DNA of 64,000 nucleotides, taken from the NCBI RefSeq assembly GCF_033100095.1, contig NZ_CP136921.1, positions 1,520,501 to 1,584,500 of the forward strand. Reading direction: 5' to 3'. Shown here one piece after another: positions 10,686-61,067 of this stretch. The translations under genes were made by a program, and so were the position numbers. The notes under the pieces are model-generated. The model did no database searches, was not told where the DNA came from, and saw nothing but the letters and a program-made list of their open reading frames with translations. Position 1 is the stretch's first letter. Each line of letters begins with the position of its first letter. The DNA is from Diaphorobacter limosus (lineage in GTDB: Bacteria; Pseudomonadota; Gammaproteobacteria; Burkholderiales; Burkholderiaceae_C).

Positions 10686-11060
10686 TCAGCGCTCGGTGGC
10701 GGCAAACTCGGCCTGGCTGGCCTTGCGTGCCTCTTCGCGCTCGACGGTCTTCATCATGGAAGACGGGCCGGTGTCGGCCTTCTTCTTTTGCACCGTCAGG
10801 TGGCGCAGCACGGCGTCGTTGAACTTGAAGGCATGCTCCAGCTCGGCCATCACGGCCTGGTCGGCTTCGATGTTCAGGCACAGGTAATGGGCCTTGGCCA
10901 GCTTGTTGATCAGGTAGGCCAGTTGGCGGCGACCCCAATCTTCCACGCGGTGCACCTGACCACCGCCGGCGGTGATCATGCCCTTGTAGCGCTCCAGCAT
11001 GGCCGGAACCTGCTCGCTTTGATCCGGATGGATCAACAAAATGATTTCGTAGTGACGCAT
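10686..11060 (-). CDS. rpsF: 30S ribosomal protein S6
   Basis: A 124-residue S6 starting [19 protein letters not shown], with the conserved [19 protein letters not shown] core. S6 binds S18 and 16S rRNA. The reading frame extends far upstream, but the ATG at 11058-11060 has a strong AAGGAG site and gives the standard N-terminus, so longer starts are rejected. It is first in the rpsF-priB-rpsR-rplI(-dnaB) operon, with a good promoter about 70 bases upstream. Confidence 0.97.
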
Positions 11061-11127
11061 GCAAACTCCTTTTGGATGACACCACCCGCCGCGTCTTGTG
11101 TAGCGGTGTGGCAAGGCAAAGCCCGGC

Positions 11128-11156
11128 ATTATAACCACTATCCCCAAGCCTGTACA
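11128..11156 (-). promoter_or_regulatory. Sigma-70 promoter of the rpsF operon
   Basis: On the minus strand a perfect TATAAT (11128-11133) lies 17 bases after TGTACA (11151-11156), a 4/6 match to TTGACA. The leader to rpsF would be about 60 bases. Confidence 0.7.
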
Positions 11157-11216
11157 CTTGGCGCCTGCCAACCGGGGGGACACCACAGGCACCGAACGGG
11201 ACGGGGCGTCTTGTCG

Positions 11217-11244
11217 CTTGAAGTCTGCCGAACCGCCCCCATGT
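11217..11244 (+). promoter_or_regulatory. RpoH (sigma-32) heat-shock promoter of grpE
   Basis: CTTGAA (11217-11222), a 14-base spacer and CCCCATGT (11237-11244) match the RpoH consensus almost perfectly. Transcription would start near 11250, about 40 bases before grpE. Confidence 0.8.
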
Positions 11245-11288
11245 AGCCGCGCATCAAGCTGCATTAATCAAAGCCAACCCTAGCCGAC

Positions 11289-11819
11289 ATGTCCGACATC
11301 CAGAATCCAGCCCCCGAAGAAATCGAAGCCGCACTGGCGGCCAATGCCGCCGACGAGCTGGCCCGCCTGCAGGGCGAGCTGGCCGAACTCAAGTCCAAGA
11401 GCGCCGAGCTGGCTGACCAGTTCCTGCGTGCCAAGGCCGAGGCCGAAAACGCCCGCCGCCGCGCCGAGGAAGAGGTCGCCAAGGCGCGCAAGTTCGGTAT
11501 CGAAAGCTTTGCCGAAAGCCTGCTGCCCGTGTGCGACAGCCTGGACGCGGCCCTGGCCATCGAAAGCGCCACCGCCGAGCAGCTGCGCGAGGGCTCCGAC
11601 GCCACGCTGCGCCAGCTGGTCGGTGCGCTGGAGCGCAACAAGGTGGTGGTGATCAACCCCGCCGGCGGCGACAAGTTCGACCCGCACCAGCACCAGGCCA
11701 TCAGCATGGTGCCGGCCGAGCAGGAGGCCAACACCGTGGTGACCGTGCTGCAAAAGGGCTACCTGATTGCCGACCGCGTGCTGCGCCCGGCGCTGGTGAC
11801 GGTGGCGGCGCCCAAGTGA
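11289..11819 (+). CDS. grpE: Nucleotide exchange factor GrpE
   Basis: A 176-residue GrpE. The long N-terminal helix ([20 protein letters not shown]) gives the dimer coiled coil, and the C-terminal beta-domain carries the conserved [13 protein letters not shown]. GrpE releases ADP from DnaK. It is the first gene of grpE-dnaK-dnaJ on the plus strand and is preceded by a near-consensus RpoH promoter. The length is slightly short of E. coli GrpE (197), as is common in this group. Confidence 0.96.
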
Positions 11820-11879
11820 GGTTGAGCGTTGAGCGCATGGCGGTATTGACGCCAGACGCAACACGCAACGCGCTCAACC

Positions 11880-11908
11880 CTTGAAAGCCAGACCAGCTAT
11901 CCACACAT
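11880..11908 (+). promoter_or_regulatory. Probable second RpoH promoter, upstream of dnaK
   Basis: CTTGAAA at 11880-11886 and CCACACAT at 11901-11908, with a 14-15 base spacer, fit the RpoH -35/-10 pattern; the -10 is imperfect. It would let dnaK be induced independently of grpE. Confidence 0.55.
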
Positions 11909-11949
11909 AACCGTCATCCACATTTTTGAAAAAACCTTCGGAGAAAAAC

Positions 11950-13893
<1,944 letters not shown>

Positions 13894-52540: not shown

Positions 52541-52681
52541 AAAAATAACAGTAACTTCGGCACTTGGAGCATCCTCAACGCCGCCCCGGAAAATCTCTCC
52601 AAGTGCTCAGAACCTGTCTCGTGGGACAGACTGCTGAACAGAGGCTCGCATCCGCCACCGGGGCGAGGTCACCGTCCGTCA

Positions 52682-53008
52682 GTGTGCCTCCCCCGCCTCC
52701 GGCACATAAACCATCGACCCGTCCTTGAGCCGATAGGCCACGCCGGCCTTGGCGCCCTGGCCTTCGCCGATCTCGCCGCTGGCCTTGTAGTGGGCGACCT
52801 TCTGGCCGTCCTTGACGATGATTTCCATGTTGTCCTTGCCCGGGTTCTTGATGATGGTCACCGACTCGGTGCTGAACGGGTTGACCGAGCTGTTGGCCAC
52901 GGCCAGCAGCAGCGCGGCGATGACGACCAGGAACACGTCGATCAGGTTGACGACCGAGAGGATGGGGTCGTCGGCCTCCAGGTCTTCCATCAGGCGCAGG
53001 CGGCTCAT
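52682..53008 (-). CDS. DUF2149 small membrane protein, ExbD-like
   Basis: A 109-residue protein: short cytoplasmic N-terminus, one membrane helix (about 16-38, SVVNLIDVFLVVIAALLLAV) and a small periplasmic domain. I place it in DUF2149. The helix carries an aspartate (Asp24, in NLIDVFLVV) where ExbD/TolR/MotB have their proton-carrying Asp, so it looks like a minimal ExbD. It overlaps the ExbB-like gene by four bases. In hmu heme clusters of Bacteroidota, as I recall, a DUF2149 protein accompanies an ExbB-like protein and a CobN-like chelatase, the same set as here. Function is inferred. Confidence 0.8.
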
Positions 53009-53541
53009 CGCGCACCCTCCAGGGCCATGACGGCCACCGGATCATGGTCGCGTTGGGGCTGGGGCGCGTCATGCTCTATCGCCGCCAGATCCACGGCGTA
53101 CCAGCGCCGGCGCACGTTGACCACGGTGTAGCTGATCGATGCCGCCATGAGCGCCAGGATCACCGCCGAAAACGCCACCGTGAGGTTGCGCGACACGTCG
53201 GCCATCTGGCCGTCGGACAGCGCCATCAGCGCCGGGCCCATGGGGATCATGGTGGCCACCAGGCCCAGCATGGGGGCGATGCGCGTGGCAATGCGCGCGA
53301 ACTCCATGCGCTTGGTGGCCAGGGCTTCGAGCTCGGTCAGCGTCATTTGGGGGTTGCGCGAGAGCGCTGCCGCTAGCTCAAAGCCGCCGGCCTGGCCGTT
53401 GTGGCGCTGCCAGGCCTGCCAGATGAAGGCGCCCAGGGCGTAGAAGGCGTGCACGAACAACAGGCCGATGAGGATGAGCACCGGCGTCAGAAACAGCTGG
53501 CTGGCGGAGTACATCGCCAATTCGATGGGATTTGCGGTCAT
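53005..53541 (-). CDS. MotA/TolQ/ExbB-family proton channel protein
   Basis: A 178-residue protein with three membrane helices: about 12-40 (LTPVLILIGLLFVHAFYALG), 87-107 (ATRIAPMLGLVATMIPMGPA, the TolQ/ExbB signature TM2) and 120-145 (AFSAVILALMAASISYTVVN). Such proteins form a pentameric proton channel with an ExbD/TolR partner; the overlapping DUF2149 protein is the evident partner. Upstream lie an 8-C tract and heptamer tandem repeats instead of a visible ribosome-binding site, so expression may be variable. The neighbouring chelatase is the likely client. Confidence 0.85.
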   Translation of the reverse strand: MTANPIELAMYSASQLFLTPVLILIGLLFVHAFYALGAFIWQAWQRHNGQAGGFELAAALSRNPQMTLTELEALATKRMEFARIATRIAPMLGLVATMIPMGPALMALSDGQMADVSRNLTVAFSAVILALMAASISYTVVNVRRRWYAVDLAAIEHDAPQPQRDHDPVAVMALEGAR

Positions 53542-53544
53542 GGT

Positions 53545-53599
53545 GGGGGGGGTAAGTGGTAAGTGGTAAGTGGTAAGTGGTAAATGGAAAGTGGTGAGT
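53545..53599. repeat. G8 tract and tandem heptamer repeats upstream of the ExbB-like gene
   Basis: Eight G (53545-53552) are followed by GGTAAGT repeated four times from 53551, then degenerate units (GGTAAAT, GGAAAGT, GGTGAGT) to 53599. This lies only a few bases before the start codon on the minus strand. Confidence 0.85.
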
Positions 53600-53629
53600 C
53601 GTAGATAGTGCGTGGTGCGTAGCCTTACT

Positions 53630-53740
53630 CCCTCCCCCTCTGGGGGAGGGTTGGGGTGGGGGCCAGCGGCGCTGATAAGTGAAAGGGAGATGCGCTAGCC
53701 GGCAGCCCCCATCCCCACCTTCCCCCAGAGGGGGAAGGGG
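53630..53740. repeat. REP/BIME-like double palindrome overlapping the 3' end of the cobN-like gene
   Basis: CCCTCCCCC-T-CTGGGGGAGGG-type hairpin at 53630-53650 with GGGGTGGGGG, and an inverted unit CCCCATCCCCACC ... GGGGGAAGGGG at 53706-53740. It is the same family as the ubiU-ubiV repeat. The right unit is translated as the tail of the CobN-like protein. Confidence 0.75.
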
Positions 53741-56700
53741 CCAGAGCGGCGGCGCTGTTGCCAGGCACCGGCACAACTCACGCCAGCCAGCGCAACGGCG
53801 AACAGCAGCGTGGCGGGGTTGAAGGGCGGCAGCTCCTTGGGCTGGACCTTTTGCATGCGCATGCCGGTGACCATGGGCGGCGGCGGTGGCTCTGGCGGCG
53901 CGGCTTCGGGCTGGGCCTCGGCCTGCTCCTGGGGCTGCGCTGCAGCCCGGGCCGGCGCAGCGGCTGCGGCCGTGGCCTGCAGGCCAAAGCCGGCCTGGGC
54001 CGCGCCCTCGGCGACAAACTCGGAGAAGCGCGCGTTGTCGCTCTGCACGTCGTAGCGCTCGGACAGGTCGCGCCAGCGCTCCCTCAGCTCCTTCACCGTG
54101 GCGGCGTCGGCCTTCCAGTAGCCCTGGCGCGCGGCTTCGAGCATGCGCTCCATGGTCTGCGCCAGCGCGTGCGGGTTCTTGGACTCGAACCATTTCTTCA
54201 GGCCCAGCTTGTGCTTGTCGCGCACATAGACGTCGACCATCTCCTGCCACTGGTCGTCGCGCACGATCTCGCGTGCGGTGGCCGTCCAGCCCCAAAAATT
54301 GTTGGTCGCGTCCAGCACCTGCAGCGCGCCGGCGTAGCCCTCCTTCATCAGGCCCTGGATGTAGCCGGGGTGGAACTGGCGCGTGGCCAGCTCCTTGGCC
54401 AGGAACTGCGCCGCGCCCTCGACCTTGCCCGAGCCGCTGCCGCGCAGGTTGCTGATGTACAGTTCGGGCGCCTTGCCGTCCAGGTGACGCACGGCCATGG
54501 CGATGCCGCCCAGGTACTGGAAGGGGTCGTCGGTGGTCAGCATGCCGTAGAGGTTGGAGCTGCGCGAGAGCACCGCGCCCTCGGTGCCGCTCAGGTGCTC
54601 GGCGTACAGGTTCACGCCCTTGCCGCCCTTGCCACCTTTGCCGTCACCTACGCCCGCCACACCGGCCTGGCCCCATTCCTTCTCGTCCGGGCCGTAGGCG
54701 AACTGCATCTTCGACAGATACAGCTCGGCCATCTTGCGGTCGCCCTCTTTCTTGCCCTTCCAGGTGTCAGTGGCCTGCGTGGCCTCGTCCAGGCCGGTGC
54801 CGTAGCGCCCGCTCTCAGAGGCAAAAATGCGCGTGGCGCCGGCCATCTCGGCCGCCTTGGCGTCGGCCCCCTGGGCGATGAGCTTTTGCGCGATGCGCTG
54901 GGCGTTCTGCGCCACCGGGTTATCTATCTCTGTAGCACGAGACGCAAGCAACACGGCCTGTGCAAGCTGTTTCATCACATTGGGGAAATGGTCGCGGTAC
55001 AGGCCGGTGGCCGACAGCACCACGTCCACGCGCGGGCGGCCGAGCTGCTCGCGCGGCACCAGTTTCACGCCGGTGACGCGCCCGCCCTTGTCCCACACCG
55101 GCTCCACACCCAAGAGCCACAGCGCCTGGGCCTCGAGCATGCCGAAGTGGCGCATGGTCTCGACCGACCAGAGCGTGAAGGTCAGCTTGGACGGCTGCTT
55201 GCCGTGCAGCTTCCGGTGCTCGGCCAGCAGGTTGTCGGCCGCCAGCTTGCCGGCCTCCCAGGCCTGCTTCGTGGGCACGCGCGAGGGGTCGAAGCCGTAG
55301 AGGTTGCGGCCGGTGGGGTAGGCATCGGGGTTCTTGATCGGGTCGCCGCCGTAGGAGGTGGGCAGGTAGCGGCCGGCCAGCACATCGAGCAGGCCCTTCA
55401 ACTCGCCCTGCGCACCCAGGTTGTCGTAGGCCGTTTGGGCCTGCGCCAGGGCTTGCTGCAGGTCGGCGGGCAGGCCGGTCATGGGTTCACCGGCCACCAC
55501 ATGCTTTTGCAAGAGCTGGTACGGCACGGTCTGCGCCAGCTTGTCCCAGGGGCCAACCAGGGCCTCATCCAGGTCGGCCGCGCTCACGCCGGCATGCAGC
55601 GCGGCGGCTTCCCAGAAATTTTTGCCCAGCGTGAGCAGCACCGTGCCCAGGCGGTGCAGCTCCTCTGGCGCCTGGCCCAGGCGGTGCAGGCCCTGGGGCT
55701 GGGCGGTCTGCGCCAGCTCGTGCAGGTGGTTGTGCAGTTCATGAACAAAGCCGGCAAAGTCAGTTTTCACCCGCGCCTCGGTCCAGCCCATGTCGGCAAT
55801 CACGCGCTCCTTGCGCGCGGCGGCCAGCAGGTCGGCGGCCATGCGATCTCGCACCGCGCCTTCGTCCTGCGCCTGCCACTGGTGCAGCAGGTCGTGCATT
55901 TGCGTCAGCGCGTCGTGCAGCCCCCCGGGGGCAAAGGGCGGCGTCTGGTGGCTGACGATGGTGGCGCGCCCACGGCGCTTGGCCTGCGTGGCCTCGCCGA
56001 TGTTGTCTGCAATGTAGGGGTAGGCCACGGGGATGTCGCCCAGCGCCAGCAGCGGCGCGTCATGCACCGACAGGCCGCGCTCCTTGCCCGGCAGCCATTC
56101 CTGCGTGCCGTGCGTGCCAAAGTGCACCAGCGCGTCGTTCTTCTGACGCGTCCACAGATAGGTGGCCAGGTAGTGGTGCGGCGGCAGGTCAACGGTGGAG
56201 TGGTAGATCTCCTTCTCTTTGGCGCGCGCGTCAGTGCTGCCGGGGGCCGCTCCGCTGCGGCCAGGCTGGGGCAGCAGTGTCACCTTGCCCAGCTGCAGGC
56301 GCGGGATGATGAAGTAGGCCTGGCCGTTCTGGCGCAGCACCCAGGGGGATTTTTCGGGATCACCCCAAGCGCGGCGCAGCTCGTCCTGCGTGGCCTGGGG
56401 CAGGCTGGCCAGCCAGGCGCGGTAGTCCTTCACCGGCAGCAACTCAGCCAGGCCGTCGCGCAACAGCGGCTCCAGCAGCCCCGGGCGGTAGCTGGGCGCC
56501 AGCAGGCGCTGCAGCAGCGTGATGAGCATGGCCTCGTCGGGCGACTCGGTCTGGTAGCCGGCGCGTGCCATGGCGCTCAGGGTGTTTTGCAGGCTGCGCG
56601 GCACGTTCAAAAACGACGCGCTCAGGTTCTTCTCGCCGGCGGGGTAGTTCCAGAACATCACGGCGACGTTCTTGTCGGCATTGGGCGTGCGCTGCAGCTT

Positions 56701-57771
56701 GACCAGGTTGAGTGCCTTGGCGGCCACGGCGGCGGCCTGCGCGGCTATCGGCATGATCTGCTCGTCGCCCTTGCGCACGGCGGACGCGACCTGGATGTCG
56801 GTCACGCCGGCGTATTCGGCCTGCGCCAGGTAGAACGGCACGTCCATCGCCGCCACGCCCTGCCGGCTGGCGGCCCAATCCGCTTCGTCGCCACGGCGGT
56901 GCGTCATGGCCTGGATGACCGGGAACCCTAAGCGCTCGAATTCTTCGCGGCGCTCGTCGGCGTTCAGCATGATCTGCGTGTTGATCAGCACGTCGGCCAG
57001 CACGGGCGTGCCGGGGCCGCCGGGCTGCAGCACCTTGGCAAACCCGCCATCGCCCATCATGGGCGTGTAGAACGGCAGCGCCACGGCGCCGCCGGCCTCG
57101 ATGCGCGCCACCATGTCGTCGATGTAGGCGGTCTGCATCGAGCCTATGTATTGCTGGTGCAGCGAAATGGCCACCACCGGCTTGCGCTGCGCGGCCTTCA
57201 TTTCCACACCCTGGCCACGCAGAAAGGCCACGGGGTCGGCCATGACGGTGCCGGGCAGGCGCGGGTGGTAGATGCCGGTCTTGGGGAAGACCACCGGGTC
57301 GGGCGCCGCCGTCAGGGCGTTGCCGCCCTTGAGCTGCGCAGCCAGTGTGGCGAAGAAACCCTCGTAATTCTGCCGCCCGCCGCTGCCGTAGTAGGCAATC
57401 AGGCGCCGCGCCACTGCCTCGGGCAGGCCCCCGCCCCAGGCCGGCTGCTGGTCGTACAGCCAGGCGTTGGGTGCCTTCAGGGCCGGCAGCGCGCGCGTCA
57501 GGCGCGCACGCACCTCGTCTTGCAGATAGCTGTCGAAGAACACCGCGTCGCGTCCGGCCCACAGGCCGGCGTCCACATCGGCCGGCAGGCTGTTGATGTA
57601 GCGCACCTCGACGTCGATGCCGTGCGGCCGTGCAATCTCCTGCAGCTGGTGGAACTTGCCCTGCGGCACGTTGCCGGTGGCGACGAACAGCACCGACGCG
57701 GCGCGCGCCGCGCCGCCCAGCAGCAGCAACGCGGTGCACAGCAGCCAGCGCAGCTTTTGGTTTTGAAACAA
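53695..57771 (-). CDS. CobN-like (HmuS-type) exported, membrane-anchored tetrapyrrole chelatase
   Basis: A 1358-residue CobN/BchH-superfamily protein. Residues 1-24 (LRWLLCTALLLLGGAARA) are a signal peptide, and the body follows the CobN fold throughout (VHFGTHGTQEWLPGKERGLS, SGSGKVEGAAQFLAKELATR, TNNFWGWTATAREIV). Near 1283-1301 is a Pro-rich linker (PPEPPPPP), then one membrane helix at about 1318-1337 and a short basic cytoplasmic tail. True cobaltochelatase CobN is cytoplasmic and works with ATP-driven CobS/CobT; this one is exported and no cobS/cobT is present. With the receptor and ExbB/DUF2149 genes it matches HmuS-type heme (de)chelatases. The TTG start has a strong GGAGG. Substrate and direction are inference. 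Confidence 0.85.
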   Translation of the reverse strand: MFQNQKLRWLLCTALLLLGGAARAASVLFVATGNVPQGKFHQLQEIARPHGIDVEVRYINSLPADVDAGLWAGRDAVFFDSYLQDEVRARLTRALPALKAPNAWLYDQQPAWGGGLPEAVARRLIAYYGSGGRQNYEGFFATLAAQLKGGNALTAAPDPVVFPKTGIYHPRLPGTVMADPVAFLRGQGVEMKAAQRKPVVAISLHQQYIGSMQTAYIDDMVARIEAGGAVALPFYTPMMGDGGFAKVLQPGGPGTPVLADVLINTQIMLNADERREEFERLGFPVIQAMTHRRGDEADWAASRQGVAAMDVPFYLAQAEYAGVTDIQVASAVRKGDEQIMPIAAQAAAVAAKALNLVKLQRTPNADKNVAVMFWNYPAGEKNLSASFLNVPRSLQNTLSAMARAGYQTESPDEAMLITLLQRLLAPSYRPGLLEPLLRDGLAELLPVKDYRAWLASLPQATQDELRRAWGDPEKSPWVLRQNGQAYFIIPRLQLGKVTLLPQPGRSGAAPGSTDARAKEKEIYHSTVDLPPHHYLATYLWTRQKNDALVHFGTHGTQEWLPGKERGLSVHDAPLLALGDIPVAYPYIADNIGEATQAKRRGRATIVSHQTPPFAPGGLHDALTQMHDLLHQWQAQDEGAVRDRMAADLLAAARKERVIADMGWTEARVKTDFAGFVHELHNHLHELAQTAQPQGLHRLGQAPEELHRLGTVLLTLGKNFWEAAALHAGVSAADLDEALVGPWDKLAQTVPYQLLQKHVVAGEPMTGLPADLQQALAQAQTAYDNLGAQGELKGLLDVLAGRYLPTSYGGDPIKNPDAYPTGRNLYGFDPSRVPTKQAWEAGKLAADNLLAEHRKLHGKQPSKLTFTLWSVETMRHFGMLEAQALWLLGVEPVWDKGGRVTGVKLVPREQLGRPRVDVVLSATGLYRDHFPNVMKQLAQAVLLASRATEIDNPVAQNAQRIAQKLIAQGADAKAAEMAGATRIFASESGRYGTGLDEATQATDTWKGKKEGDRKMAELYLSKMQFAYGPDEKEWGQAGVAGVGDGKGGKGGKGVNLYAEHLSGTEGAVLSRSSNLYGMLTTDDPFQYLGGIAMAVRHLDGKAPELYISNLRGSGSGKVEGAAQFLAKELATRQFHPGYIQGLMKEGYAGALQVLDATNNFWGWTATAREIVRDDQWQEMVDVYVRDKHKLGLKKWFESKNPHALAQTMERMLEAARQGYWKADAATVKELRERWRDLSERYDVQSDNARFSEFVAEGAAQAGFGLQATAAAAAPARAAAQPQEQAEAQPEAAPPEPPPPPMVTGMRMQKVQPKELPPFNPATLLFAVALAGVSCAGAWQQRRRSGPFPLWGKVGMGAAG

Positions 57772-57772
57772 A

Positions 57773-57811
57773 TTGGCCTCCTGCGCCCTATTTATGAGCG
57801 CCAGCAGCTAC
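57773..57811. repeat. 39-bp palindromic repeat, copy 10 (degenerate), beside the cobN-like start
   Basis: The GAGCGCC and AGCTAC right arms keep family spacing; the left arm overlaps the ribosome-binding site of the TTG start at 57771. Confidence 0.45.
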
Positions 57812-57830
57812 TATTTTTATAGCTAACAAA

Positions 57831-59783
57831 TCAGAAATCCAGACGTGCCGAAACAAAGACCCGGCGGCCCAGCTCGGCGTAGCCGAAGTTGGGCGACTTC
57901 TCGGCCAGGCGCACATTGCCCAGGTTCTCCAGGCCGGCGCGAAGATGAAGGTTTTGCGTGGCATTGAGCTTCATGGCGTAGCCCGCGCTGACGTTGAACA
58001 GGGTGTAGGCCGGCAGCTTGTTGCCGTAGTTCTCCTGGCTGCCGGTGTATTGCAGGCCCATGCGGGCGTCCCAGCCGCCGCGCTTCCAGGTCAGGTGCGA
58101 GGCCACGCTGGTCGTGGGCCGGTCGTTCAGGCGCTTGCCCGTGGCCTTGTCGCGCGTGTGCAGCAAGGTGGCATCGCTGCCCCAGGACAGCTGCCTGGAG
58201 AGCTGCAGGGTGAAGCCCGCCTCCAGCCCCTGGATGCGCGCGGCGTCGATGTTGTCGTACTGGTAGACGCGGCGTATGCCGATCTGCTGCAGCAGCTTGT
58301 AGGTGATCAGGTCCTTGACCTCGGTGTGGAAGGCCGTGGCGCGCAGCGACAGCGCGCTGCTGGCCTGCCAGTCGGCACCGATCTCCAGCGAGTTGGACGT
58401 CTCGGGCTTGACGTTGGCGTTGCCCAGGAAGCTGTGCGGCCCCTCGGCCCCGACGTAGTTGGGCGAGATCTGCTTGAGCGTCGGCGCCTTGAAGGCGTGG
58501 CCCCAGCCACCCTTGACGACGAGCTGCGGGCTGGCCTCCCAGACCAGGTAGGCGCGCGGGCTCAGCTCGGAGCCAAACAGGCCATGGTGGTCGGCGCGCA
58601 GGCCCAGGGTGGCCATCAGATTCGCGCCCAGCGAGAACTCGTCCTGCACGAACAGCGCCTTGTGCGTCACGTCGTCACGGCCGCCCTTCAGGCCGGCGTT
58701 GACCAGCTCCTCATTGCGCCATTCGCCGCCCAGGGCGATGTTGTGGCTGCCGCGGCGCAGCGTGACATGGCCGTCAACGACATCGTCCTGCATGTCCTGC
58801 GGGCGCGTCGGCGCCACGCCGTTGCTGCGGCTGTTGATGACGCTCATCTCGCTGCGGTAGGCGCGCAGCTGGGCCTTCAGGTCACCAAAGTCGCCCGTCC
58901 AGCCGACATGGGTCTGGCGCCGATCCAGGTCGTAGCGGTTGACATAGGCGCGGCCGGCGGTGTTCACGTCGTCGTACAGGCGCCGTTCCTGGCCGTCGCT
59001 GATGCCGGCCTGCAGGCGCTGGCTGGCCGTCAGGTCGAACTCGGCGTTCACGCCCAGGTTGCGCGGCCTGCGGCCTTCGACCTCGCTGTAGCGCAGGTCA
59101 TCAATGTCTGGCGTGGGGTTACTGCGCGCGTACTCGGCGTTGACCGACAGGCGCGCACGCTGGCCCAGCGGGCCCGCGGCGTAGACCGAACTGCCGAACT
59201 GGCTGGCCGCGTCGCTCTTGAGGCCGGTGCCGCCGGAGACACCGATGGAGCCGCTCCAGTGATCCTTGGGCTTCTTGCTGATGACGTTGATCACCCCGCC
59301 CAGCGCCTCGGAGCCATACAGCGCCGACATCGGGCCGCGGATGATCTCGATGCGCTCGATGGCCGAGATTGGCAGCCAGCCGTACTGGTAGTCGGAGTGG
59401 CCGATCACGTCGTCGCTGGCGCTGATGCGCCGGCCGTCGATCAGCGTCAGCGTGTGCTTGCCCTCCAGGCCGCGCAGCGCCAGCGTCTTGCGCCCGCCCA
59501 CCTGGCGCGCCTGCAGGGTGATGCCGGGCGCGCCGCGCACGGCGTCCAGCAGGTCGGTGGCGTTCTTCTCGGCCAGCTCTTCGGCGCTGATGACGGTGAC
59601 GCTGGCCGGCGCGGTGCGCGCGTCCTGCTCGGTCATGGTGGCGGTGACGGTGACGGCGGGCAGGCCCTGGGCGGGCGCCAGGGCCAGGGTCTCGGTCTGC
59701 GCCTGGGCGGCGCCGGTCGCCAGCAGCAGGGCGGCCAGGGCCAGCGGATGGCGGCGGCAGGGTACGGCAAATGGGATACGCAT
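57831..59783 (-). CDS. TonB-dependent outer-membrane receptor, candidate heme/metallophore receptor
   Basis: A 650-residue receptor. Signal peptide about 1-28 (LALAALLLATGAAQAQ), plug domain (VTVISAEELAEKNATDLLDA, RGLEGKHTLTLIDGRRIS, IRGPMSALYGSEALGGVINV), then a 22-strand barrel ending in Phe (VFVSARLDF). The plug is of CirA/FepA style. In the barrel FKAPTLKQ and NANVKPETS correspond to the FRAP and NPNL boxes of heme receptors, with a His between them (GPHSFLG), which would fit heme. It is first of the receptor/CobN/ExbB/DUF2149 set. I chose the ATG at 59783 because it gives the signal peptide; a longer frame exists. B12 or siderophore transport cannot be excluded. Confidence 0.88.
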   Translation of the reverse strand: MRIPFAVPCRRHPLALAALLLATGAAQAQTETLALAPAQGLPAVTVTATMTEQDARTAPASVTVISAEELAEKNATDLLDAVRGAPGITLQARQVGGRKTLALRGLEGKHTLTLIDGRRISASDDVIGHSDYQYGWLPISAIERIEIIRGPMSALYGSEALGGVINVISKKPKDHWSGSIGVSGGTGLKSDAASQFGSSVYAAGPLGQRARLSVNAEYARSNPTPDIDDLRYSEVEGRRPRNLGVNAEFDLTASQRLQAGISDGQERRLYDDVNTAGRAYVNRYDLDRRQTHVGWTGDFGDLKAQLRAYRSEMSVINSRSNGVAPTRPQDMQDDVVDGHVTLRRGSHNIALGGEWRNEELVNAGLKGGRDDVTHKALFVQDEFSLGANLMATLGLRADHHGLFGSELSPRAYLVWEASPQLVVKGGWGHAFKAPTLKQISPNYVGAEGPHSFLGNANVKPETSNSLEIGADWQASSALSLRATAFHTEVKDLITYKLLQQIGIRRVYQYDNIDAARIQGLEAGFTLQLSRQLSWGSDATLLHTRDKATGKRLNDRPTTSVASHLTWKRGGWDARMGLQYTGSQENYGNKLPAYTLFNVSAGYAMKLNATQNLHLRAGLENLGNVRLAEKSPNFGYAELGRRVFVSARLDF

Positions 59784-60088
59784 GAACGTCCAGAAGTAAG
59801 AACCGCAGTGGCTGGACGCTGGCGCCGCAAGGGTGCGCGTGGGGCTGGGCGGAAAGTTGAAAAAACCCGATATCGACGCCAAGCACCAGACCGGTCAGCA
59901 GAGTGTTTTGCCCCCGGGACTTGCCTCCTGGAGTGGCGAACACGGCACCCACAGGCGGTGGCAGCGCGAAACTGGGCGGAAGTGTAAACGCAAGTCGTTC
60001 GCATTCGCATCAATATTTAAAGAAAATGCGACCGAATGATCTTTGTCAATAACGCCCAGGCGCGCTGCAGCCCGCCTGGGCGCAGATA
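59784..60088 (-). promoter_or_regulatory. Leader and promoter region of the receptor operon
   Basis: 305 bases without a gene, shared with the divergent DUF2946 gene. On the minus strand a perfect TTGACA lies at 60044-60049, and 59994-60040 is A/T-rich with repeated GCGAAT/GCGAAC units (59996-60009) that resemble a GC-rich Fur box; no clean -10 was found. The roughly 200-base transcribed leader has GC-rich inverted segments (59920-59965), but the conserved B12-box of a cobalamin riboswitch was not found. Confidence 0.35.
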
Positions 60089-60538
60089 ATGCGCATCACC
60101 ATGCCTCTCTTGCGCAACGCTCCCCGCCTGGCCCGCCTGCTGCTGGCCTGCTTTGCGCTGTCGCTCGCGGTGGCCATGGCCGCGCCGCTGGTGCAGGCCC
60201 GGCCCATGGAACGCGTGTGCACTGCATCGGGCGATGAACGCTGGGTGGCGGCCGGCGGCAACCAGGTCGGCACCCTGCCCTATGAGGGCCACCAGTTCAG
60301 CTGCGCGCTGTGCCTGCCGCCCATGCTGCCCGGCGCGCAAGCGGCCACCCTTCCCCAGCCCCAGGGCCAGCCCTTCATGGCCCAGGCACTACGCGTGCGC
60401 ATCGGCCATGTGCCGGCACTCAGCCGCGCCGCCTTTCCGCCACGCGCCCCGCCGGCGCCCGCGCCATCGCCTTGCAATCTTTCTGAGTGCGGCGGGGCCA
60501 TCTGCGCCCCGCCCCGATGCGCGCATGGGCCGGGATGA
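60089..60538 (+). CDS. DUF2946-like secreted protein
   Basis: A 149-residue protein with a signal peptide (LARLLLACFALSLAVAMAAP) followed by VCTASGDERWV and the motif CALCLPPM typical of DUF2946 proteins, which are found beside copper-transport genes. The C-terminal third is Pro/Ala/Cys rich. It precedes a PCuAC copper chaperone by 44 bases, so a role in periplasmic copper handling is likely but unproven. It is divergent from the TonB-dependent receptor. Confidence 0.7.
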   Translation: MRITMPLLRNAPRLARLLLACFALSLAVAMAAPLVQARPMERVCTASGDERWVAAGGNQVGTLPYEGHQFSCALCLPPMLPGAQAATLPQPQGQPFMAQALRVRIGHVPALSRAAFPPRAPPAPAPSPCNLSECGGAICAPPRCAHGPG

Positions 60539-60581
60539 CCCGTCGCGCTCGCCCTCCACCGATCCAATCAAGAGACTTTTT

Positions 60582-61067
60582 ATGAACTTCCAACCCATTG
60601 CCACCCGTATCACCCTCGCCGCCGCCCTGCTGCTGACCGGCTTCGCCCATGCCCAGGTCAGCGTGCAGGACGCCTGGGTGCGCGCCACCGTGCCGCAGCA
60701 AAAGGCCACCGGCGCCTTCATGCGCCTGACCGCTGCCCAGGACATGCGCCTAGTCGCCGCCAGCAGCCCCGTGGCCGGCATTACCGAGGTGCACGAGATG
60801 AAGATGGTGGACAACGTGATGAAGATGCGCGCCGTGCCGGCTCTGGATCTGCCGGCCGGCCAGGCCGTGGAGCTCAAGCCCGGCGGCTACCACATCATGC
60901 TGCTGGACCTGAAGCAGCCCGTGGCCCAGGGCGCCAGCGTGCCTCTGACCCTGGTCTTCGAGGGCAAGGACGGCCAGCGCCAGACCCAGGAGCTGCAGGC
61001 CCCCGTGCGCGCCCTGGGCGCCACGGCGGCACCCGCCATGGGGCATGGCAAGCACAGCGGGCACTGA
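60582..61067 (+). CDS. PCuAC-type periplasmic copper chaperone
   Basis: A 161-residue periplasmic protein with signal peptide ending TGFAHAQ. The Cu(I) site is complete: His71-X10-Met82-X21-His104-X-Met106, exactly the PCuAC H-X10-M-X21-H-X-M pattern (TEVHEMKMVDNVMKM; GGYHIMLLDL). These proteins deliver Cu(I) to the CuA site of cytochrome oxidase, or to other cuproenzymes, often with Sco. A His/Gly-rich tail (GHGKHSGH) may bind a second copper. Follows DUF2946. Confidence 0.92.
   Translation: MNFQPIATRITLAAALLLTGFAHAQVSVQDAWVRATVPQQKATGAFMRLTAAQDMRLVAASSPVAGITEVHEMKMVDNVMKMRAVPALDLPAGQAVELKPGGYHIMLLDLKQPVAQGASVPLTLVFEGKDGQRQTQELQAPVRALGATAAPAMGHGKHSGH

Follow-up and report, generated by a model that had tools for sequence, protein, structure and literature searches.

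An exported CobN-like protein in a putative iron-acquisition cassette of Diaphorobacter limosus

Gene content of the locus

The window analysed here is a stretch of 64,000 nucleotides of the Diaphorobacter limosus genome (positions 1520501-1584500 of its single 4.10-Mb contig, NZ_CP136921.1), and its subject is a run of minus-strand genes encoding, in this order, a TonB-dependent receptor, an exported CobN-like protein, an ExbB-like protein and a DUF2149 protein. An original prediction, made from the letters of the window, had described four consecutive genes of this kind and proposed a periplasmic heme dechelatase; open reading frames and Pfam matches confirm the gene run. Its best reading is a putative HmuS-like but distinct cassette that would strip the metal from heme or a comparable iron chelate.

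All cassette features are given in window coordinates and lie on the minus strand. The outer-membrane receptor (57831-59783) is CirA-like, referred to below as type i, and matches the Pfam plug (98.7 bits) and barrel (188.9 bits) families. Its reading frame is open to 59882 and the likely start is the methionine at 59783, chosen at MRIPF. The CobN-like protein (53695-57771; 1358 residues) matches PF02514 with 973 bits and has a TTG start, its exact start being uncertain. It is followed by the ExbB/TolQ/MotA-like channel protein (53005-53541; 178 residues; PF01618, 31.3 bits, cut-off 22.9) and the DUF2149 protein (52679-53008; 109 residues; PF09919, 103.4 bits, cut-off 27.1), which has an ExbD-like membrane helix. 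The receptor and cobN genes are separated by 59 bases and exbB and duf2149 overlap by 4 bases, a spacing compatible with one transcription unit. In the open reading frames and Pfam matches of the four-gene run there were no HmuY or HmuT genes. The statement that the window holds no cobalamin genes stands for the CobN, CobT and riboswitch searches, but annotation is complete only for about 47.4-64 kb and CobS was not searched for.

Export features and key residues of the CobN-like protein

Hydropathy analysis found both of the hydrophobic segments claimed for the CobN-like protein, a signal-like segment at the N-terminus and, after a proline-rich linker, a C-terminal membrane helix (53761-53820). 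These export features support processing outside the cytoplasm, as originally proposed. A C-terminal helix above the hydropathy threshold is present in 101 of 105 exported relatives versus none of six cytoplasmic CobN/BchH proteins, one of which is cut short. The linker is variable apart from a conserved motif before the helix, VTGMRMQKV in the window protein (53845-53871). Its pattern, [VIMK].G..[ML], occurs near the C-terminus of 84/89 exported CobN proteins outside the cobalamin type described below, 2/16 of the cobalamin type and 0/6 cytoplasmic proteins. It was detected in 30 of 40 chosen representatives (shuffle mean 0.8, maximum 5), and the stricter [VI].G..[ML]..[VTAEQ] in 22 of the 40 (shuffle mean 0.16).

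The predicted fold is that of CobN, HmuS and ChlH, a six-domain class I chelatase. In alignments the HFGTHG motif (56107-56124) carries His-554, the equivalent of the catalytic His-538 of HmuS, and both this histidine and its Glu-577 partner are kept. The HmuS signature LSLDHxxEFMGG (His-1209, Glu-1212), whose DH..E residues are kept in the three Bacteroidota HmuS proteins compared, is absent. The window protein has LTTDDPFQYLGG instead, with Asp-1082 and Gln-1085 of DDPFQYLGG (54505-54531) at the places of the His/Glu pair. DDPFQYLGG is found in all 63 members of the window's clade. The place of the neck heme ligand, HmuS His-254, is taken by Ile-267 when aligned through L050 (L-numbers are labels of fetched loci), while the multiple alignment sets the column differently. 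In domain IV the window protein has at most 5 methionines per 60 residues, versus 18 in Prevotella HmuS and 7 in Bacteroides finegoldii HmuS.

Distribution and phylogeny

DUF2149 served as a search handle independent of CobN. In the order 30/399 genomes gave a match, 27 of them above the Pfam cut-off; in the class the figures were 21/369 and 20. The window genome belongs to both samples. Stretches were fetched around these matches (31 + 20), and 53 named loci encoding close CobN relatives were added. Four of 52 places were dropped from the DUF2149 set (L062, L063 and L065 under the Pfam cut-off; L142 not recovered). In the remaining 48 loci ExbB lies within 1 kb in every case and a same-strand CobN within 4 kb in 46, so the gene set is no chance association. 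A same-strand receptor is present somewhere in the fetched stretch in 35 of the 48, three of the 13 misses being contigs under 10 kb. Counting the window's own, 6/7 genomes of the genus carry a CobN of the window type, and the nearest named record comes from an Alicycliphilus metagenome-assembled genome (L084, 99%).

A tree of 111 CobN proteins was rooted on BchH, with CobN readings of 1200 residues or fewer excluded (among them L042, L045, L075, L110, L125, L126, L128 and L135). Two trees were made; weak deep nodes differ between them and only strongly supported groups were used. Five canonical CobN proteins (four plasmid-borne, one from the window's own genome) form a group with a support of 1.0, and the window protein lies outside it. 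Support is low (0.088) at the node uniting all exported proteins, which fall into the cobalamin type (n = 16), a small group with Runella and Trichlorobacter lovleyi, an Asp-His..Glu group, and the window's clade (n = 63). The node of this last clade is also weak (0.37), with 55 members, including the window protein, held together at 1.0. The 60 listed clade loci counted below exclude L127, L163, L110, L153-L157 and the window, all of the same type.

Receptors, ChaN-like genes and promoters of the clade

A receptor lies just upstream in 53 of the 60 listed clade loci, 22 of them type i and 31 of other kinds. Among the latter, TIGR01785 and TIGR01786 are each matched by 30 at E ≤ 1e-96, a threshold chosen to approximate the curated cut-offs; all seven receptors scored against the curated heme cut-offs themselves (L109, L089, L085, L080, L111, L048 and L112) pass both. 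None of the 22 window-type receptors scanned reaches 1e-96, the best being 1.8e-68. On the CobN tree the two kinds are interleaved, L039 (type i) lying next to L041 (heme type) and the type-i L104 group next to heme-type L111, which suggests that they may share one substrate class. His-483 of the window receptor (58434-58436; reading-frame numbering), between the FKAP and N.N[IV]KPE boxes, is invariant in 22 aligned type-i receptors and is a possible heme ligand, a histidine between these boxes being what we take to be a mark of heme receptors.

ChaN-like genes, ChaN being of the heme-binding family PF04187, are found in 15 of the 60 listed loci and in L110, the only carrier among the same-type loci outside the 60, giving 16 in total, versus none of 37 tree loci of other clades. 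The example in L085 scores 136.7 bits. The genes mostly lie inside the cassette; the one in L112 is 2.6 kb away.

Promoters were scanned with Fur and Zur consensus sequences. A Fur-like box upstream of the window receptor (59986-60006, minus strand) agrees with the consensus at 14/21 positions (shuffle p 0.016; 0.049 for the near-identical L084), and the same block is kept when six promoters of the genus, including two from the window's species, are aligned. Boxes of at least 15/21 occur in 30 of 52 clade promoters, versus 8/491 control windows and 3/98 AT-rich controls; eight of the 60 loci were dropped from this count (seven without a receptor, one with too little upstream sequence). The Stutzerimonas loci L105 and L115 are of the window type and have Fur-like boxes. 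A scan of the window promoter with the Zur consensus gave no good site (best 12/22, shuffle p 0.28), and one Zur-like regular-expression match was found in the clade locus L041. Riboswitch control of the window locus was considered and rejected: no Rfam family reached its gathering score in the window, and around the locus a search relaxed to E 10 detected no cobalamin riboswitch. Nine window-type cassettes of the clade (L081, L085, L089, L109, L104, L072, L043, L099 and L105) also lacked one. Three clade loci (L080, L082, L102) share a GCCACTG heptamer upstream.

The survey of the neighbourhoods of exported CobN homologues, suggested as a check by the original prediction, thus found heme-family receptors, ChaN-like genes and Fur-like boxes recurring in the window's clade. 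These features appear to make iron and heme its best-supported theme. The proposed uptake of a metallated tetrapyrrole gains from this context but not from the window receptor, which stays below the heme cut-offs.

CobN and iron genes elsewhere in the genome

A profile search detected two CobN proteins genome-wide. The second is encoded beside cobW, ChlI-like AAA and VWA genes, in a cluster that also contains TonB receptors, a FecCD-type ABC importer and a cobalamin riboswitch. Its partners and its place near the riboswitch indicate that the window protein is not the cobaltochelatase that the cell needs, and that the label cobaltochelatase CobN is misleading, as had been suspected. Beforehand, genome-wide cobS/cobT with a full cobalamin pathway lacking another cobN, or a phylogenetic place inside cytoplasmic aerobic CobN, had been named as arguments against a dechelatase. 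The genome has another cobN and no CobT (PF11775, genome-wide; CobS was not searched for), and the window protein falls outside the five canonical CobN proteins. The genome also has one FeoB and, outside the cassette, four ExbD proteins.

The ExbB-DUF2149 pair

DUF2149 has one membrane helix, NLIDVFLV in the window protein, in which Asp-24, the Asp of NLIDxFLV, is conserved in 90% or more of 35 aligned sequences. In hhalign this helix aligned to the ExbD profile over 21 columns (probability 39.5, E 3e-4); 20 column shuffles gave at most 0.45 and an ExbB alignment 0.64. None of six DUF2149 proteins tested matched the ExbD family PF02472. Three DUF2149 matches below cut-off proved to be ExbD-like (L062: PF02472 96.8 bits, PF09919 24.8 bits; its relatives L063 and L065), which hints at kinship.

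In Trichlorobacter lovleyi an ExbB-DUF2149-CobN set lies in a region with cobalamin genes; a complete exbB-exbD-tonB-receptor set comes after it as a separate unit. Cells of Methanosarcina and other Methanomicrobia are not known to have an outer membrane. Families scored genome-wide in Methanosarcina acetivorans, a control genome, included CobN and DUF2149 but not ExbD, and two other control archaea had CobN without DUF2149. A published table places relatives of HmuS and HmuV in Methanomicrobia (PMC10100974). The pair accompanies CobN more often than a receptor, T. lovleyi has both sets, and the CobN and DUF2149 families occur in M. acetivorans, all of which makes the CobN-like protein the probable target of ExbB-DUF2149, the pair taking the role of CobST or ChlID. 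The published view is a different one, namely that ExbB-DUF2149 (HmuU/HmuV) powers the receptor in Bacteroides thetaiotaomicron (PMC10100974, PMC12583661). The pre-membrane motif, the ExbD-like helix of DUF2149 and the presence of the core behind other metal switches are new points. A broader idea is that CobN, ExbB and DUF2149 form one proton-driven demetallase, in which an ion motor docked through the pre-helix motif replaces the AAA+ partner and which is reused with Fur for iron from heme in the window's clade, with Zur for zinc, with a B12 riboswitch and a BtuB-like receptor for cobalt or corrinoids, and perhaps for nickel (hyp cluster, nikR); we regard it as speculative, with the odds against it.

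Interpretation and rival explanations

We consider it somewhat probable (roughly 0.58) that the locus is an iron-acquisition cassette in which the iron of a tetrapyrrole, most likely heme, or of a comparable chelate is removed in the periplasm. From the genes present, the signs of export, the fold prediction, the clade and the neighbours and promoter boxes found, we infer a substrate, a reaction direction, Fur binding and a motor role as follows. Iron shortage would release Fur from the promoter. The receptor, energised by an ordinary TonB system, would bring the iron-tetrapyrrole or similar chelate into the periplasm, where the CobN-like protein, with its C-terminal helix as an anchor in the inner membrane, would hold the macrocycle in its cleft and remove the iron, working in the reverse direction to a chelatase. 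The freed iron(II) could then enter through FeoB. ExbB and DUF2149 would probably form a proton-driven unit on the CobN-like protein, replacing the ATP-driven CobST or ChlID of cytoplasmic chelatases.

Several findings weigh against this reading. The clade loci were picked by similarity and are not independent. The window receptor scores 203 and 188 bits with TIGR01785 and TIGR01786 (cut-offs 316.85 and 323.75), its best score, 300 bits, is with a catecholate siderophore receptor model whose cut-off is 745, and at 222 bits the B12 receptor model comes slightly ahead of the heme model, all of these being below cut-off. The window's Fur-like box is weak, since its level of 14/21 is also reached in 13 of 491 control windows, and 22 of the 52 clade promoters fall below 15/21. 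A ChaN-like gene is missing from the window cassette and from the loci of the genus, and the one in the genome lies elsewhere. The Asp/Gln pair replaces His-1209/Glu-1212 of HmuS throughout the clade, as in CobN, and the clade member L102 lacks the THG of the catalytic motif. VIA-align and Foldseek both place CobN ahead of HmuS for the model of the CobN-like protein, contrary to a simple HmuS label. A fold search with the soluble part of DUF2149, a low-confidence model, gave no ExbD-like match at E ≤ 0.001. The absence of heme oxygenase (PF01126) and HemS (PF05171) from the genome, a point in favour of the reading, covers only two heme-degradation families. Finally, among described loci in Pseudomonadota the one closest to the cassette, PA1922-PA1925 of Pseudomonas aeruginosa, is under zinc control; the original prediction had missed it.

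That locus is the basis of an alternative that we judge unlikely: the cassette would take up a zinc or cobalt chelate, from which the CobN-like protein would remove the metal. PA1922-PA1925 has the same four-gene content and is Zur-regulated, a Zur-like palindrome is present in L050 of the related Z clade, and the receptors scanned in the Z-clade loci L049 and L050 resemble CirA, as the window receptor does. The window protein, however, is placed outside the Z-type clade, and its promoter has a Fur-like box and a Zur-like agreement of just 12/22. A review cuts both ways. It reports PA1922 to be frequent in the stutzeri group, whose loci here are of the window type, but it restricts Zur control of PA1922 to P. 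aeruginosa. Among 120 listed relatives of the window-type protein of Pseudomonas schmalbachii there was no P. aeruginosa, most rows carrying no species name.

It is also improbable, more so than zinc uptake, that ExbB and DUF2149 energise the receptor, with TonB supplied from elsewhere, and that the CobN-like protein binds or stores heme and removes no iron. Such a division of labour would match the HmuU/HmuV description for B. thetaiotaomicron (PMC10100974, PMC12583661) and the loss of the HmuS-type residue pair. The retained equivalents of His-538 and Glu-577 speak against it, as does the distribution of ExbB-DUF2149, which accompanies CobN more often than a receptor and stands next to a complete second system in T. 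lovleyi. The CobN and DUF2149 families are also both present in M. acetivorans, which is not known to have an outer membrane. A corrinoid system, which would import cobalamin or another corrinoid and handle cobalt outside the cytoplasm, seems very improbable. The Asp-Asp..Gln signature is that of cytoplasmic CobN, the predicted fold aligns best to CobN, and cousins of the cassette lie behind cobalamin riboswitches, two of those scanned with BtuB-like receptors. No such riboswitch precedes the window locus or the nine scanned clade cassettes, however (that of L089 precedes its second cassette), heme-type receptors lie beside the clade's CobN genes, and the B12 cluster of the genome is elsewhere.

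If iron removal by the window protein is real, a betaproteobacterial branch that is linked to Fur and differs in its active-site pair would reveal which residues are truly needed, and many cobaltochelatase CobN labels would be corrected. In the literature found, heme dechelation by a CobN-like protein has been demonstrated in Bacteroidota only, and recently; no paper on a betaproteobacterial cassette or an ion-driven chelatase was found in the open literature. The survey also offers the CobN-like protein, rather than the receptor, as a testable partner of the ExbB-DUF2149 pair.

Comparison with known systems

The original prediction likened the locus to the hmu operon, and comparison with Bacteroidota cassettes bears this out for gene content. 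The window locus shares with hmuYRSTUV the receptor, the exported membrane-anchored CobN-like protein, the ExbB-like protein and DUF2149, and its CobN-like protein shares with HmuS (PDB 9d26, 9p4s) the six-domain chelatase fold and the histidine of HFGTHG. Without HmuY and HmuT it is no complete six-gene operon. The protein also differs from HmuS in its separate tree branch and perhaps in showing no clear methionine-rich insertion, and iron control of the window locus is putative. The features that define HmuS further include Met-79 as a heme ligand and NADH-dependent conversion of heme to protoporphyrin. Membership of HmuS itself is not supported: Asp/Gln stands for the His/Glu pair, the run has no HmuY or HmuT, and the structure alignment of the model gave Z 49.4 to CobN versus 40.7 to HmuS. 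HmuV has been remarked to mark heme transport only (PMC10100974); this is disfavoured by the presence of DUF2149 behind B12 riboswitches.

PA1922-PA1925 likewise combines a receptor, a CobN-like protein, an ExbB/ExbD-annotated protein and DUF2149 in one operon of the Zur regulon; it is likened to the window locus by gene content. Published papers report a Zur site and, when znuA is mutated, 147-, 122-, 45- and 56-fold higher levels of the four genes (PMC4542158), name PA1925 a DUF2149 protein (PMC9431628), and describe the operon as strongly induced by zinc starvation, with zinc or cobalt import as a guess (PMC4542158, PMC10393844, PMC9431628, PMC11761036). The window locus differs in having a Fur-like box and no good Zur-like site. 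Cytoplasmic CobN (PDB 7c6o, 9uk9, 9fpc) differs from the window protein, which is exported, membrane-anchored, encoded with receptor and proton-channel genes and without an adjoining CobST or ChlID partner; the other CobN of the genome has ChlI-like/VWA partners.

Related cassettes in other metal contexts

Relatives of the gene set look as if they had been reused for other metals. CobN-ExbB-DUF2149 cassettes lie behind cobalamin riboswitches (RF00174) in L134, L137, L141 and L089. In the cobalamin type the riboswitch was found in 3/3 loci scanned. This type (L134, L137, L141) shares the three-gene core with the window but has a ND.FD-type signature, proteins of 1433-1502 residues, a divergent, low-scoring DUF2149, mostly no pre-membrane motif, and a riboswitch in place of the Fur-like box. 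Two receptors scanned are BtuB-like, matching the B12 receptor model TIGR01779 best (476 and 466 bits, below the cut-off of 599.7). Azonexus hydrophilus (L089, 5235-19434) has two cassettes on opposite strands, one of the window type and the other behind a cobalamin riboswitch.

The CobN of the L050 cassette retains the His/Glu pair of the HmuS type, and the promoter of this cassette contains a Zur-like palindrome, GCAATGTTATAACATTGC. On the Runella plasmid pRUNSL01 (L160, 5182-13216) a receptor, ExbB, DUF2149 and CobN lie between hypABF and hypCDE, genes of nickel-enzyme maturation, and a membrane protein is also encoded there whose weak resemblance to NicO/DsbD stays below cut-off; this cassette is a possible nickel version. 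Ten proteins scanned around the Runella-like loci L036 and L037 included no nickel genes; L035 was not scanned. In L036 a PepSY-type membrane protein, a possible reductase, lies between receptor and ExbB (10979-12238). The cassette on an Azospirillum brasilense Sp 7 plasmid (L170, 4596-16554) is near an iron ABC transporter, a siderophore receptor and nikR. Cassettes of Bacteroides, Prevotella and Aureibacter resemble full hmu operons.

Neighbouring features

Divergent genes at 60089-61067 of the window encode a DUF2946-like protein (just under the Pfam cut-off) and a PCu(A)C copper chaperone. Among the loci compared, they lie beside the cassette only in the near relatives L084, L098 and L066, and another PCuAC gene is near the unrelated cassette L129. 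Because of this restriction they were not counted as part of the cassette, and a copper link was rejected.

Between cobN and exbB (53630-53738) there is a hairpin with 41-base arms that are 83% complementary, one of which encodes the last residues of the CobN-like protein. It is a member of a dispersed repeat with at least 40 matches genome-wide, counting both strands and itself.

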